Positions 40,652 through 51,544 of a stretch of DNA of 64,000 bases are shown piece by piece. Positions within the stretch are counted from its first letter, which is position 1; each line of letters begins with the position of its first letter. The stretch is from Ramlibacter montanisoli (GTDB lineage Bacteria; Pseudomonadota; Gammaproteobacteria; Burkholderiales; Burkholderiaceae_C). The notes under the pieces were generated by a model. The model had not been told where the DNA came from. It searched no databases and saw only the letters and a list, made by a program, of their open reading frames with translations. The stretch covers positions 1,054,001 to 1,118,000 of the forward strand of contig NZ_JABFCS010000001.1 in assembly GCF_013087525.1 (NCBI RefSeq), in the 5' to 3' direction. A program made the position numbers and the translations under genes.

Positions 40652-41995
40652 CTAGCGCGCGGCCTCGATGCCCAGCCGCTTCATCTTTTCCCAGAGGTTC
40701 TTGCGGCTGATGCCCAGGTGCGCGGCCGCCTGCATGATGTGGCCGCTGCAGTGCGCCAGCGTCCCTTCGATGTAGCGGCGCTCGCATTCCCGGATGTACT
40801 GGTCCAGCGTGCCGACCGCGCGCGCGTCGGGCAGCCGGTCGTCGCGCCAGTCCTCGAACAGGTCGGGCGGCTGCAGCTCCGCCGCGCCGCACAGCACGCA
40901 GGCGCGCTCGATGCAGTGGCGCAGTTCGCGCAGGTTGCCGGGCCAGGGATAGGCGAGCAGCGCATGCTCGGCGGCCGGCGAGAGCGTGCGCGGCTCGCCG
41001 CCGTGCAGCTCGGAGAACTCGCGCAGGAAGCGGCGCGCGAACCACAGGATGTCCTCGGGCCGGTCGCGCAGCAGCGGGATGCGCACGTGGACCACGTTGA
41101 TGCGGTAGTAGAGGTCTTCGCGGAAGGTGCCGGCCTCCACGCGCGCACGCAGGTCCTGGTTGGTGGCGCAGATGATGCGCAGGTCCACCGGCACCGCCGT
41201 CTCGCCGCCCACGCGCACGATGCGGCGGTCCTGCATCGCCCGCAGCAGCTTCACCTGCATGGCGAAGGGCATGTCGCCGATCTCGTCGAGGAACAGCGTG
41301 CCGCCGTGCGCCTGCTCGAACACGCCCTTGCGCTGGCGCGCCGCGCCGGTGAAGGCGCCGCGTTCGTGGCCGAACAGTTCCGCTTCGATCAGGCTCTCGG
41401 TGATCGCCCCGCAGTTGACGGCCACGAAGGGGCGCTCGCGCCCGGCGCAGGCCATGTCGTGCAGCAGTTGCGCGACGTGTTCCTTGCCGACGCCGGACTC
41501 GCCGGTGATCAGCAGCGTGCTGGCATGCGTGGCGAGGCGCCGCAGCGTCGCTTCCACCCGCTGCATCGCCGGCGACAGGCCCAGGGGATGGCTCACGGGT
41601 GCCGGCGGCGCGGGCGCGTGGTTGCGGCACAGCTGGCGCACCTTCAGCACCAGGTCGTCCAGGTCGAAGGGCTTGGTCACGTAGTCGGCGGCGCCGGCCT
41701 TGAGGAGCGACACGGCGCGTTCGATCGAGCCGTGGCCGGTGATGAACAGGAAGGGCGGCGGCTCGATAGCGGACTCGTGCAGCCGCGCGAACAGGATGTC
41801 GCCGGCGAAATCGGGCAACCGGATGTCGCTGATGACGGCGTGGTAGCCCTGGCGGCCGATGGCGCGGTGGGCGTCGGCGGCACGGCGGTGCCATTCGATG
41901 TCGAAGCCTTCGAGCCGGAAGCGGTCCACCAGGGACTCGCCCATGATCTCGTCGTCCTCAACCAGGCACAGCTTCGGCGACGGCTTCGGGTTCAT
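40652..41995 (-). CDS. arxR: Sigma-54-dependent response regulator (ArxR/AioR-like)
   Basis: A 447-residue NtrC-type activator: receiver domain (LCLVEDDEIMGESL, phospho-acceptor in VISDIRLP, TKPFDLDDLVLKV), AAA+ domain with Walker A GESGVGKE, the sigma-54 contact loop ERGAFTGA and Walker B GTLFLDEIGD, and a C-terminal Fis-type HTH (AAHLGISRKNLWEKMKRLG). It lies downstream of the kinase gene, which it overlaps by 38 bp. With a -24/-12 promoter 2.5 kb away in front of the molybdoenzyme operon, it is the obvious activator of that operon. The name is assigned from gene order. Confidence 0.85.
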   Translation of the reverse strand: MNPKPSPKLCLVEDDEIMGESLVDRFRLEGFDIEWHRRAADAHRAIGRQGYHAVISDIRLPDFAGDILFARLHESAIEPPPFLFITGHGSIERAVSLLKAGAADYVTKPFDLDDLVLKVRQLCRNHAPAPPAPVSHPLGLSPAMQRVEATLRRLATHASTLLITGESGVGKEHVAQLLHDMACAGRERPFVAVNCGAITESLIEAELFGHERGAFTGAARQRKGVFEQAHGGTLFLDEIGDMPFAMQVKLLRAMQDRRIVRVGGETAVPVDLRIICATNQDLRARVEAGTFREDLYYRINVVHVRIPLLRDRPEDILWFARRFLREFSELHGGEPRTLSPAAEHALLAYPWPGNLRELRHCIERACVLCGAAELQPPDLFEDWRDDRLPDARAVGTLDQYIRECERRYIEGTLAHCSGHIMQAAAHLGISRKNLWEKMKRLGIEAAR

Positions 41996-43452
41996 GGGTG
42001 GTCCTCACGGGCAGGCGGATGCGGAAGACGGTGTGGCCCGGCACGCTGGTGGCACTGATCTCGCCGCCGAGCTGCTGGACGATCTGGTAGGTGACCCACA
42101 GGCCCAGGCCCTGCCGCTCGCCTTCGGGCTGCAGGAAGGGCTCGAACAGGTAAGGCAGGCGTTCGGGCGGGACATGGCGGCCGTCGTTGACCACCTCGAT
42201 CTCCAGCGCGTCCTTCACCCGCACGGTGCGGCAGCTCACGTGCCCGCCGTGCCCGGCGGCCTGCACTGCGTTGTACAGGAGGTTGATCAGGATCTGCCGG
42301 GTCGGCGTGGACGGCAGCGGCAGCGGGGCGTCGATGCCGTTGTGCCACTGCAGGTGCAGCCCCTTCTCCTGCGCCACCGCGAGCAGCAGCGTGCGCGTGT
42401 CCTCCACGTCTTCGCGGGTCAGGGCATGGCTTTCCACCCGGGCCTCCACCAGCAGGGCGGCCACGGTCTCGCGCACCTGCCGCAGCCCGCGTTCGACGAG
42501 GGACAGTGTCCTGGTGGTCAGCTCGTCGCGCGGCCCGTGCCGGCGGAAGGTGCTGATGGCATTGAGCATGCCGCCCAGCGGGTTGTTGATCTCGTGCGCG
42601 ATGCCAGCGGTGAGGCGCCCGATCGCCGCCAGCCGGTCGGACGCGATCATCTGCCTTTCCAGCGCTTCCTTGTCGCGCAAGGCGCGCAGCATGCGCTGGA
42701 ACTCCGTGCCCAGGCGGCCGATCTCGTCCTGGCCGCGATAGCGGTGGACGTAGGCGACCTGTTCGGCCGCATGCGGTCCCACCTTGCCCATGGCGTTGGC
42801 CAGGTCCACCAGCGGGCGCGCCACCAGCCGGCCCCAGAACCAGCCCGCCGGCAGCAGCAGCAGCAGGACCAGCGCGGTCACCGTGGCGGCGCGCTGCGCC
42901 AGCGCCGTGAAGCGCGGCGCGAACACCTTGCCGGAATAGGCGAGCACCAGCGTGCCCATCTCGACGCCGTCGTACAGGATGGGCAGCACCATGTAGAGCC
43001 GGCCGCTGCCGGGGTGACCACGGAAGTGGGTTCGCCGGGCGGCGCGGCGGCGATCGCCTGTTCGACCTGCGCGTAGTCCGAGTCGATGTGGCCCGGCTCG
43101 CCCAGCATGGGGTAGCGCGTGGGCTGCGTCGAGACGTAGATGCGGTGGCGCGCGTCGAGCAGCATCACGAGCTCGGGCGCGGGGCCGGGCGCGGCGAGGG
43201 AGTCCGGCGCGGCCTGGAAGGGTGCGTTGATGATCTCGTAGGCGCGCCAGGCATCGTCGTGCACGATCGGCTCCACCAGCGTGTTGGCCAGCAGGCGCGC
43301 CACGCTCTCGGAATGGGAGATCAGGTCGCGCCGCAGTTCGTCGCGCTCGCGCATGACCAGGAGGCCGTGACCAGCACGGCCGTCACGATCACCAGCGCGC
43401 AGATGCGCAGCGGTGTCTTGTACGACAGGCTGAGGTCGTGCAGGAAGTTCAC
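41958..43452 (-). CDS. arxS: Sensor histidine kinase (ArxS/AioS-like), frame broken twice
   Basis: Three frames make one protein of 498 residues once single bases are restored near 43360 (CTC CTG region, GG run) and in the G4 run 43011-43014. Order: GTG start 43452 (NFLHDLSLSYKTPLRICA), first membrane helix (ICALVIVTAVLVTAS), periplasmic domain of about 130 residues, second helix (ATVTALVLLLLLPAGWFWG), HAMP, H-box GIAHEINNPLGG, N-box LLYNAVQAAG and G-box GLGLWVTYQIV. The GTG overlaps the stop of the binding-protein gene. It presumably senses arsenite through that protein and phosphorylates the adjacent response regulator. Confidence 0.82.
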
Positions 43453-50961: not shown

Positions 50962-50971
50962 AGGAGCCGGC

Positions 50972-51544
50972 ATGAAGGTCTTCGGCATCGCCGGCCACTC
51001 CGGCATGGGCAAGACGACGCTGCTGGAGCGGCTGTTGCCCGAGCTGCGCGCGCGCTCCCTGCGCGTCTCGCTGGTCAAGCAGAGCGGCAAGGACATCGAG
51101 GTGGACCGGCCAGGCAAGGACTCCTGGCGCCTGCGCGAGGCCGGCTGCCACGAGGTGCTGCTGCTCGGGACCCGGCGCTGGGCCCTGATGCGCGAGCTGC
51201 CGCCGGCGCAGGAGCCCTCGCTGGAAGAACTGCTCGCGCGCCTGGACACCTGCGACCTGGTGCTGGTCGAAGGCTTCCGCCATGGCGACCTGCCCAAGCT
51301 CGAGGTCTGGCGCGCCGCGGAGGGCAGGGCGCCGCTGGCGCCCGGGCTGGACATCCGCGCGGTGGCGGCGCCGGCCGCCGATGCGCGCGCCCTGCGTGCC
51401 CTGTCACCGAACTGCCGGCGCCTGCGCCTGGAGGACACCCACGCGATCGCCGACTTCGTGCTCGCCGCGGCACGGCCGGTCCGCGGCGTGGAGTCTGCCA
51501 TCCCGCGCTACCAGTTGCACGCCACCGCCCGCACGCTCCAGTAG
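50972..51544 (+). CDS. mobB: Molybdopterin-guanine dinucleotide biosynthesis protein MobB
   Basis: A 190-residue P-loop GTPase with Walker A GHSGMGKTT at residues 8-16, SLVKQSGKDIEVDRPGKDSWRLREAG (MobB signature with DRPGKDS) and LVEGFRHGDLPKLEVWR. It assists MobA in making the bis-MGD cofactor of DMSO-reductase-family enzymes, so its inclusion at the end of this operon fits a dedicated cofactor supply. It starts 10 bp after the chaperone gene, with AAGGAG upstream. Confidence 0.9.
   Translation: MKVFGIAGHSGMGKTTLLERLLPELRARSLRVSLVKQSGKDIEVDRPGKDSWRLREAGCHEVLLLGTRRWALMRELPPAQEPSLEELLARLDTCDLVLVEGFRHGDLPKLEVWRAAEGRAPLAPGLDIRAVAAPAADARALRALSPNCRRLRLEDTHAIADFVLAAARPVRGVESAIPRYQLHATARTLQ

Follow-up and report, generated by a model that had tools for sequence, protein, structure and literature searches.

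What kind of respiratory system is encoded at positions 40652-51544 of the DNA studied here, a stretch of 64,000 nucleotides from Ramlibacter montanisoli (hereafter the window), and what is its substrate? A preliminary description made from the letters alone had read these genes as a complete arx-type arsenic respiration island with its own sensor system. Comparison with relatives in other genomes supported the arx-type reading through the clade and GRGWG motif of ArxA, the binding pocket of ArxX, the AAA+ class of ArxR and synteny. We put the probability that the cluster is arx at roughly 0.93; such a cluster is predicted to encode an anaerobic arsenite oxidase, linked to nitrate or low oxygen, together with a dedicated arsenite sensor. 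The genes arxR, arxS and arxX lie on the minus strand, arxB2, arxA, arxB, arxC, arxD and mobB run divergently on the plus strand, and arsR and acr3 follow. Translations, Pfam domains and the synteny of relatives all bore out the gene order and strands described before (the arxXSR / arxB'ABCD layout): arxABC share order and direction, arxB2 and arxD are present, and arxXSR is divergent.

The catalytic molybdenum subunit ArxA (45715-48183, plus strand; 822 amino acids) is intact and carries the motif FGRGWG. Its twin-arginine translocation (Tat)-type start, SRRTFLQ, for which export is predicted, precedes the Fe-S site C56-X2-C59-X3-C63-X27-C91 (PF04879), and the ArrA/ArxA motifs quoted earlier, CX2CX3CX27C included, were thereby recovered. 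Relatives were collected by a scan seeded with ArxA peptide patterns, which favours such proteins; it returned 200 stretches, 140 of them with a relative at tblastn E <= 1e-3, and the best 80 (L021-L100) were kept. GRGWG was present in all 80. A tree of 102 rows, made by a quick search with Shimodaira-Hasegawa-like approximate likelihood ratio test (SH-aLRT) support, comprised the window, these 80, seven further relatives (L010, L013-L015, L106-L108), four ArrA-type rows (L105, L016-L018) and, as outgroups, four PhsA/PsrA-like and six TtrA-like rows; L011 and L012 (same places as L036 and L092) and L019 and L020 (pieces of L015 and L014) had been dropped. All 88 of 88 GRGWG rows, the window included, formed a single group with support 100, separate from the ArrA-type, PhsA/PsrA-like and TtrA-like rows. 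The preliminary description had proposed such a tree as its own check, naming placement outside the ArxA/ArrA clade as the outcome that would count against it, and the enzyme fell within the ArxA clade.

A respiratory arsenate reductase (Arr) running in the reducing direction would be the nearest competing identity, as the ArrA-type rows are the sister group and the nearest solved structure is an ArrA (6cz7, E 2e-114). The window enzyme nevertheless lies outside the ArrA-type clade with the same support of 100, and it reaches 430 bits with the ArrA model NF041714, far under the cut-off of 1600. According to PMC6549141, XGRGWG marks ArxA and (R/K)GRY marks ArrA. The ArrA-type rows L105 and L016-L018 carry RGRY in place of GRGWG, and the window enzyme has no (R/K)GRY motif. 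The regulators also speak against Arr: ArxX fits AioX better than ArrX, and ArxR is an AAA+/sigma-54 protein while the published ArrR is CitB-like. We consider an Arr highly improbable. Two other memberships were tried and rejected. For AioA, TIGR02693 gave 25.5 bits against a cut-off of 359; for PhsA/PsrA or TtrA, the window fell in the ArxA clade and not with those rows.

The sensor module points the same way. ArxX (43449-44366, minus strand) is a predicted PhnD-family periplasmic arsenite-binding protein, matching the AioX structures 6esv/6esk at E 1.4e-64 and ArrX 6x6b at E 1.6e-40. Counted by hand on an alignment to 6esv, with the residue list of PMC5908839, it keeps seven of seven AioX pocket residues (Tyr88, Cys106, Tyr131, Ser161, Ser163, His192 and Asp210 in AioX numbering). 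ArxR (40652-41995, minus strand) is a response regulator with receiver, sigma-54 AAA+ and Fis-type helix-turn-helix domains (Pfam Response_reg, Sigma54_activat, HTH_8), 72% and 74% identical to the ArxR of L036 and L064. It is of the AtoC/NtrC type, which PMC5908839 gives for the AAA+ activators AioR and ArxR, unlike the CitB-like ArrR. Between them lies arxS (~41958-43455, minus strand), a HisKA/HATPase sensor kinase in three frames as assembled, with a HAMP match slightly below cut-off; two of its pieces match the ArxS of relatives. A search by synteny for arxX/S/R homologues, as had been suggested, found the divergent XSR genes in 28 of 49 fully covered relatives.

Sequence gives no direct reading of the substrate, and the preliminary description had raised the oxidation of a different oxyanion, for example antimonite; arsenic would then be a side substrate. 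This is also very improbable in our estimate, given that ArxX keeps the AioX arsenite pocket and that arsR and acr3 adjoin the cluster. Published work on related systems argues in the same direction: the ArxX of Alkalilimnicola MLHE-1 bound arsenite and no other ion tested, antimonite included (PMC5908839), arsenite activity was shown for a related arxA (PMC6683785), and PMC10100899 knows of no other physiological function for ArxA/ArrA.

A stretch of 183 bp separates arxX from arxB2 and holds a palindrome and a -24/-12 site. The palindrome GTTAC-N6-GTAAC, GTTACCCGACGGTAAC, lies at 44453-44468 (no strand assigned) and is a candidate ArxR operator; the window has no second match to it at up to one mismatch. 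A half-site, GGTAAC (44430-44435, no strand assigned), stands upstream at a GTAAC-to-GTAAC distance of 33 (33 in L036, 34 in L064). The sigma-54 -24/-12 promoter-like site TGGCACGCTTGATGCC (44523-44538, plus strand) precedes arxB2 and has 10 of 12 consensus letters. We compared the divergent arxX/arxB2 regions of the window and 36 relatives, a set that holds close kin (e.g., L022-L026) and is therefore not 37 independent cases. Requiring an invariant GG and GC and no fewer than 9 of the 12 consensus letters, we found a -24/-12 site on the forward strand in 30 of 37 and on the reverse strand in 4 of 37; after shuffling the mean was 2.0 and the largest count 6, of 37. Across the whole window a -24/-12 pattern alone was found 26 times against a mean of 35 expected by chance; the weight of the site lies solely in its position and conservation.

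The palindrome was present in 35 of the 37 promoters, the window's included, and absent from L053 and L076. Its density was 57 sites in 13.2 kb of promoters (0.005 expected after shuffling) versus 9 in the remaining 622 kb of the 36 loci; because the same promoters served first to spot it and then to count it, the window is not independent evidence. Association with the sensor genes was scored in the 60 of 80 loci whose sequence extends 5 kb or more upstream of arxA, the palindrome being sought within 2.5 kb upstream: it occurred in 33 of 40 loci with arxX, arxS and arxR matches, compared to none of 20 without the three. Among the 20 loci with shorter upstream sequence, which were omitted, L072 has the palindrome and no arxX match on its 3.5 kb upstream. 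Palindrome-bearing arx clusters are mostly from Beta- and Gammaproteobacteria; the alphaproteobacterial loci L029, L056 and L098 are without it, and L096 is the sole alphaproteobacterial one in the table with it. Collectively, GTTAC-N6-GTAAC is probably the ArxR operator, as judged from these occurrences.

Several related observations concern the same element. Where a promoter has two full palindromes (22 cases), these are 42-45 bp apart in 18, 64 bp in L047 and L049, 90 bp in L096 and 33 bp in L084. In the Azoarcus/Aromatoleum loci L022-L027, a third GTTAC-N6-GTAAC stands in or near arxB2, ~710 bp downstream of the second main site. The palindrome was not found in two loci with AioA over cut-off (L101, L102; ~1.5 kb flank each). 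Two Burkholderiales metagenome-assembled genomes (MAGs), L034 (genome G200) and L076 (genome G210), have an arx cluster together with an AioA over cut-off, and have arxXSR matches and no palindrome upstream of arxA. An AioR consensus was reportedly published by Andres et al. in 2013. That consensus paper excepted, no prior description of the palindrome was found in the literature searched, in the parts of it that were available. The MLHE-1 ArxR site begins gtaac (PMC5908839), and a term search for GTTAC/GTAAC strings in the available text of PMC6011840 and PMC7533571 found none.

Do the sensor genes and the enzyme share one history? In midpoint-rooted trees, the window's ArxX and ArxR group with those of L036 (Burkholderiales MAG NC_groundwater_1606) and L064 (Rubrivivax sp. 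MAG bin.38), with support 100 and 99; these are the closest ArxX and ArxR. The three loci also have the operator layout in common, a half-site plus one full palindrome at 33-34 bp from GTAAC to GTAAC, although a spacing of ~33 is not confined to them, since the two palindromes of L084 are 33 bp apart. Their ArxA proteins do not group: those of L036 and L064 are only 66-70% identical to the window's and belong to other ArxA subclades, and forcing the three together lowers the log-likelihood by 512 units (p-AU 7e-51, approximately unbiased test), for a constrained group that was chosen from the regulator trees but after the 102-row ArxA tree was known. The same sensor block and 33-34 bp layout stand beside three unlike ArxA lineages; the history of ArxA differs from that of the sensor module. 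According to PMC5908839, the phylogeny of XSR tracks 16S and that of the molybdenum enzyme does not, and the discordance seen here is a local case of that pattern. We lean towards the view that GTTAC-N6-GTAAC is the arx ArxR operator and that arxXSR and the operator layout are inherited as a block, which has been joined to different arsenite-oxidase operons. Relative to the literature searched, which does not include the published AioR consensus, two things are new: the conserved candidate for the operator, and its likely inheritance together with the sensor module.

Some observations weigh against the assignment to arx or its details. First, the PhsA/PsrA and TtrA reference rows and the single strong ArrA row (L105) are below their curated NCBIfam cut-offs, so that their labels name the nearest family only. 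Second, the exact position of the window within ArxA was not resolved in a slower, careful tree of 31 rows, and the MLHE-1 ArxA itself was not among the rows compared. Third, seven of the 40 arxXSR clusters (L029, L030, L034, L053, L056, L076 and L098) are without the palindrome. Finally, six frame changes, none of them a start-stop junction, interrupt four genes: arxS (~43369, ~43020), arxB2 (~45234), arxC (~49652) and acr3 (~52307, ~52515). The earlier claim of a complete cluster therefore holds for gene content and not for the reading frames, as arxS, arxB2 and arxC, and acr3 beyond them, are not continuous as assembled.

ArxB2 (arxB'; 44550-45718, plus strand) is a multi-[4Fe-4S] ferredoxin-like protein with Fer4 domains in both pieces. 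ArxC (~48975-50122, plus strand), the NrfD-type membrane subunit on the quinone side, has PF03916 in its first piece, and both pieces match the ArxC of relatives. The arsenite efflux pump gene acr3 (~51933-53004, plus strand) extends over three frames with PF01758 in the first, and its three pieces match adjacent places of a single gene in relatives, e.g., L024. Whole genes complete the set on the plus strand: arxB (48208-48978), a DmsB-type [4Fe-4S] electron-transfer subunit, 62-77% identical to the ArxB of L021-L100 among the matches listed; arxD (50149-50961), a TorD/NarJ-type chaperone (PF02613); mobB (50972-51544), for molybdopterin-guanine dinucleotide synthesis protein B (PF03205); and arsR (51596-51922), an ArsR-family repressor with C-terminal cysteines (PF12840, PF01022). 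The placing of arsR and acr3 directly after the cluster had been described correctly.

The breaks could be real mutations in a decaying arx cluster, the system being dead. Such an explanation bears on the present condition of the cluster only and is compatible with its identity as arx. An automatic rule for frameshift-like switches counted nine in the window, six of them in the cluster and three in the other 52 kb; the switch that it places at 50097, within the cluster, probably reflects the overlap of arxC with arxD, and the change at 43369 is missed. Six frame changes in four genes across 40652-53004 are denser than the average of 40 switches in ten 20-kb samples of the host genome (200 kb), and rpoB of the host genome is whole in a single frame. 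The cluster's ~1 break per 2 kb, above the sampled average, is within the range of the samples, which hold 0-9 switches each, the richest being L116 and L117 with 8 and 9. By manual grouping of adjacent matches, five of nine Molybdopterin-domain genes and five of 11 resistance-nodulation-division (RND) pumps of the host genome are split (one RND match below cut-off left out). The loci of eight relatives (~20 kb each) hold four such switches in total. Composition is of the coding type on both sides of every break, and arxR, arxX, arxA, arxB, arxD and mobB are open. Decay is rated unlikely because the breaks occur genome-wide, which is also why they were not used as a defining feature of the arx cluster; assembly indels are the likely cause. 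As such switches are frequent in this assembly (span in the window 43020-62856), a "broken gene" there may be a sequencing error.

How does this arx cluster compare with those already known? Compared to the cluster of Azoarcus sp. CIB, in which disruption of arxA abolishes anaerobic arsenite oxidation (PMC6683785), and its relative Aromatoleum tolulyticum, the window has the same genes, order and divergent layout and likewise a heterotrophic betaproteobacterial host. The A. tolulyticus of Fig. 4 of that paper is in the tree as L025, and CIB itself is not among the rows compared; L025 has an ArxA 71% identical to the window's and both promoter elements. The Azoarcus/Aromatoleum loci L022-L027 differ in having no mobB match where the window has mobB after arxD, in their ArxB2 (just 33-44% identical), and in two full palindromes 43 bp apart in place of one palindrome and a half-site at 33 bp. 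Within the 102-row tree, the window lies in a 43-row clade with Ectothiorhodospira and Aromatoleum, which, with the lack of a long insertion in ArxA, suggests group 2 of PMC6549141, as far as can be said from rows other than that paper's own sequences. Group 3 ARX of strain M52 is also a betaproteobacterial arx oxidase but has a long ArxA insertion (PMC6549141); L014 and L015, which we infer to be group 3, have stop-to-stop frames of 955 and 1033 amino acids versus 822 in the window.

The cluster type is already known and not rare, and the window is a further example. The preliminary description had called it known mainly from alkaliphilic Gammaproteobacteria, with a few Betaproteobacteria; in Burkholderiales it is more widespread than that, with several Burkholderiales loci among the best 80 relatives, which include Hydrogenophaga, Piscinibacter, Tepidimonas, Rubrivivax and an Alcaligenaceae strain. 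No paper titled on arx in Comamonadaceae, Burkholderiales MAGs, Ramlibacter or Tepidimonas was found in the literature searched, and PMC3954881, on 188 Burkholderiales genomes, counts 12 with aio and one with arr. All 49 fully covered relatives have arxB and arxC, and two of them have mobB within 6 kb downstream of arxA; in the Ectothiorhodospira loci L047 and L049, mobB is directly downstream of arxD, as in the window. Matches at E <= 1e-100 occurred in 10 of 197 relatives, the window's own genome included, three of them at only 34-35% identity. L016, L017 and L018 (genomes G043, G109 and G035, of the same genus or family; three of 197 relatives) encode an RGRY ArrA-type enzyme with ~34% identity to the window's ArxA, with a mobB match adjoining the gene in L016 and L017; judged from these sequences, arsenate respiration is possible in the window's family. 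In L063, on a contig labelled Candidatus Riflebacteria, arxA has the copy of Sulfuritalea sp. bin.273 as its sister, ~0.08 changes per column away, indicating either a mis-binned contig or a fairly recent transfer.

The host genome has 4.75 Mb in two contigs and is rated 90% complete; GC of the window is 69%. The cluster adjoins phaC, thiolase and phaB genes, read from translations (phaB is a short-chain dehydrogenase by Pfam), and a Rieske oxygenase with a LigXa-type C-terminal domain lies at 32232-33671, in agreement with the polyhydroxybutyrate and aromatic catabolism genes reported earlier. Between phaB and arxR, 40142-40645 encodes a small protein with no Pfam match at E <= 1e-5. The term island fared less evenly. 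A patchy distribution and the tree discordance favour it; an island by composition was rejected, the cluster GC of 0.65-0.75 per kb being that of the flanks, and ARAGORN found no tRNA gene beside the cluster, the sole one in the window being far off at 16305-16381; mobility genes were not systematically searched.

For the electron acceptor, the longest narG piece of the host genome is over cut-off, and napA is in two pieces, each under cut-off. A cytochrome d1-type domain is split over two pieces, and NirS is unproven because NCBIfam named neither at E <= 1e-10. With the single NosZ model used (TIGR04246), nitrous oxide reductase gave three weak matches to its C-terminal end only. There was no aioA match at E <= 1e-20 and no match to the RuBisCO large subunit, which matched in five of 14 control genomes. 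With no such match, arx would likely serve here in detoxification or as an additional energy source for a heterotroph, as it does in Azoarcus sp. CIB; a nitrate-linked heterotroph of that kind would be the best model for the host.

We infer the following working for the arx cluster, which presupposes that the frame-broken genes are intact in the living cell. Periplasmic arsenite would bind ArxX via its cysteine, and the complex would trigger the kinase ArxS, with a phosphorelay to ArxR. Phosphorylated ArxR would then bind GTTAC-N6-GTAAC upstream of arxB2 and activate sigma-54 RNA polymerase at the -24/-12 site. ArxD and probably MobB would assist the maturation of ArxA, which would be exported via Tat and would run in the oxidizing direction, turning arsenite into arsenate in the periplasm. 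Electrons would pass through the [4Fe-4S] clusters of ArxB to ArxC, the quinone pool, and nitrate or oxygen, while ArsR/Acr3 would clear arsenite from the cytoplasm.

In 2019, according to PMC6683785, control of arx by ArxSR still lacked experimental proof. The conserved palindrome provides a defined DNA target for testing that control, and it may serve as a sequence marker for arsenite-inducible arx clusters. The cluster brings a further case of arx to a genus where an arxA of this type is sparse (2 of 60 genomes, the window's own included), and collectively these results suggest that arsenite oxidation without oxygen has spread by exchange among Burkholderiales.

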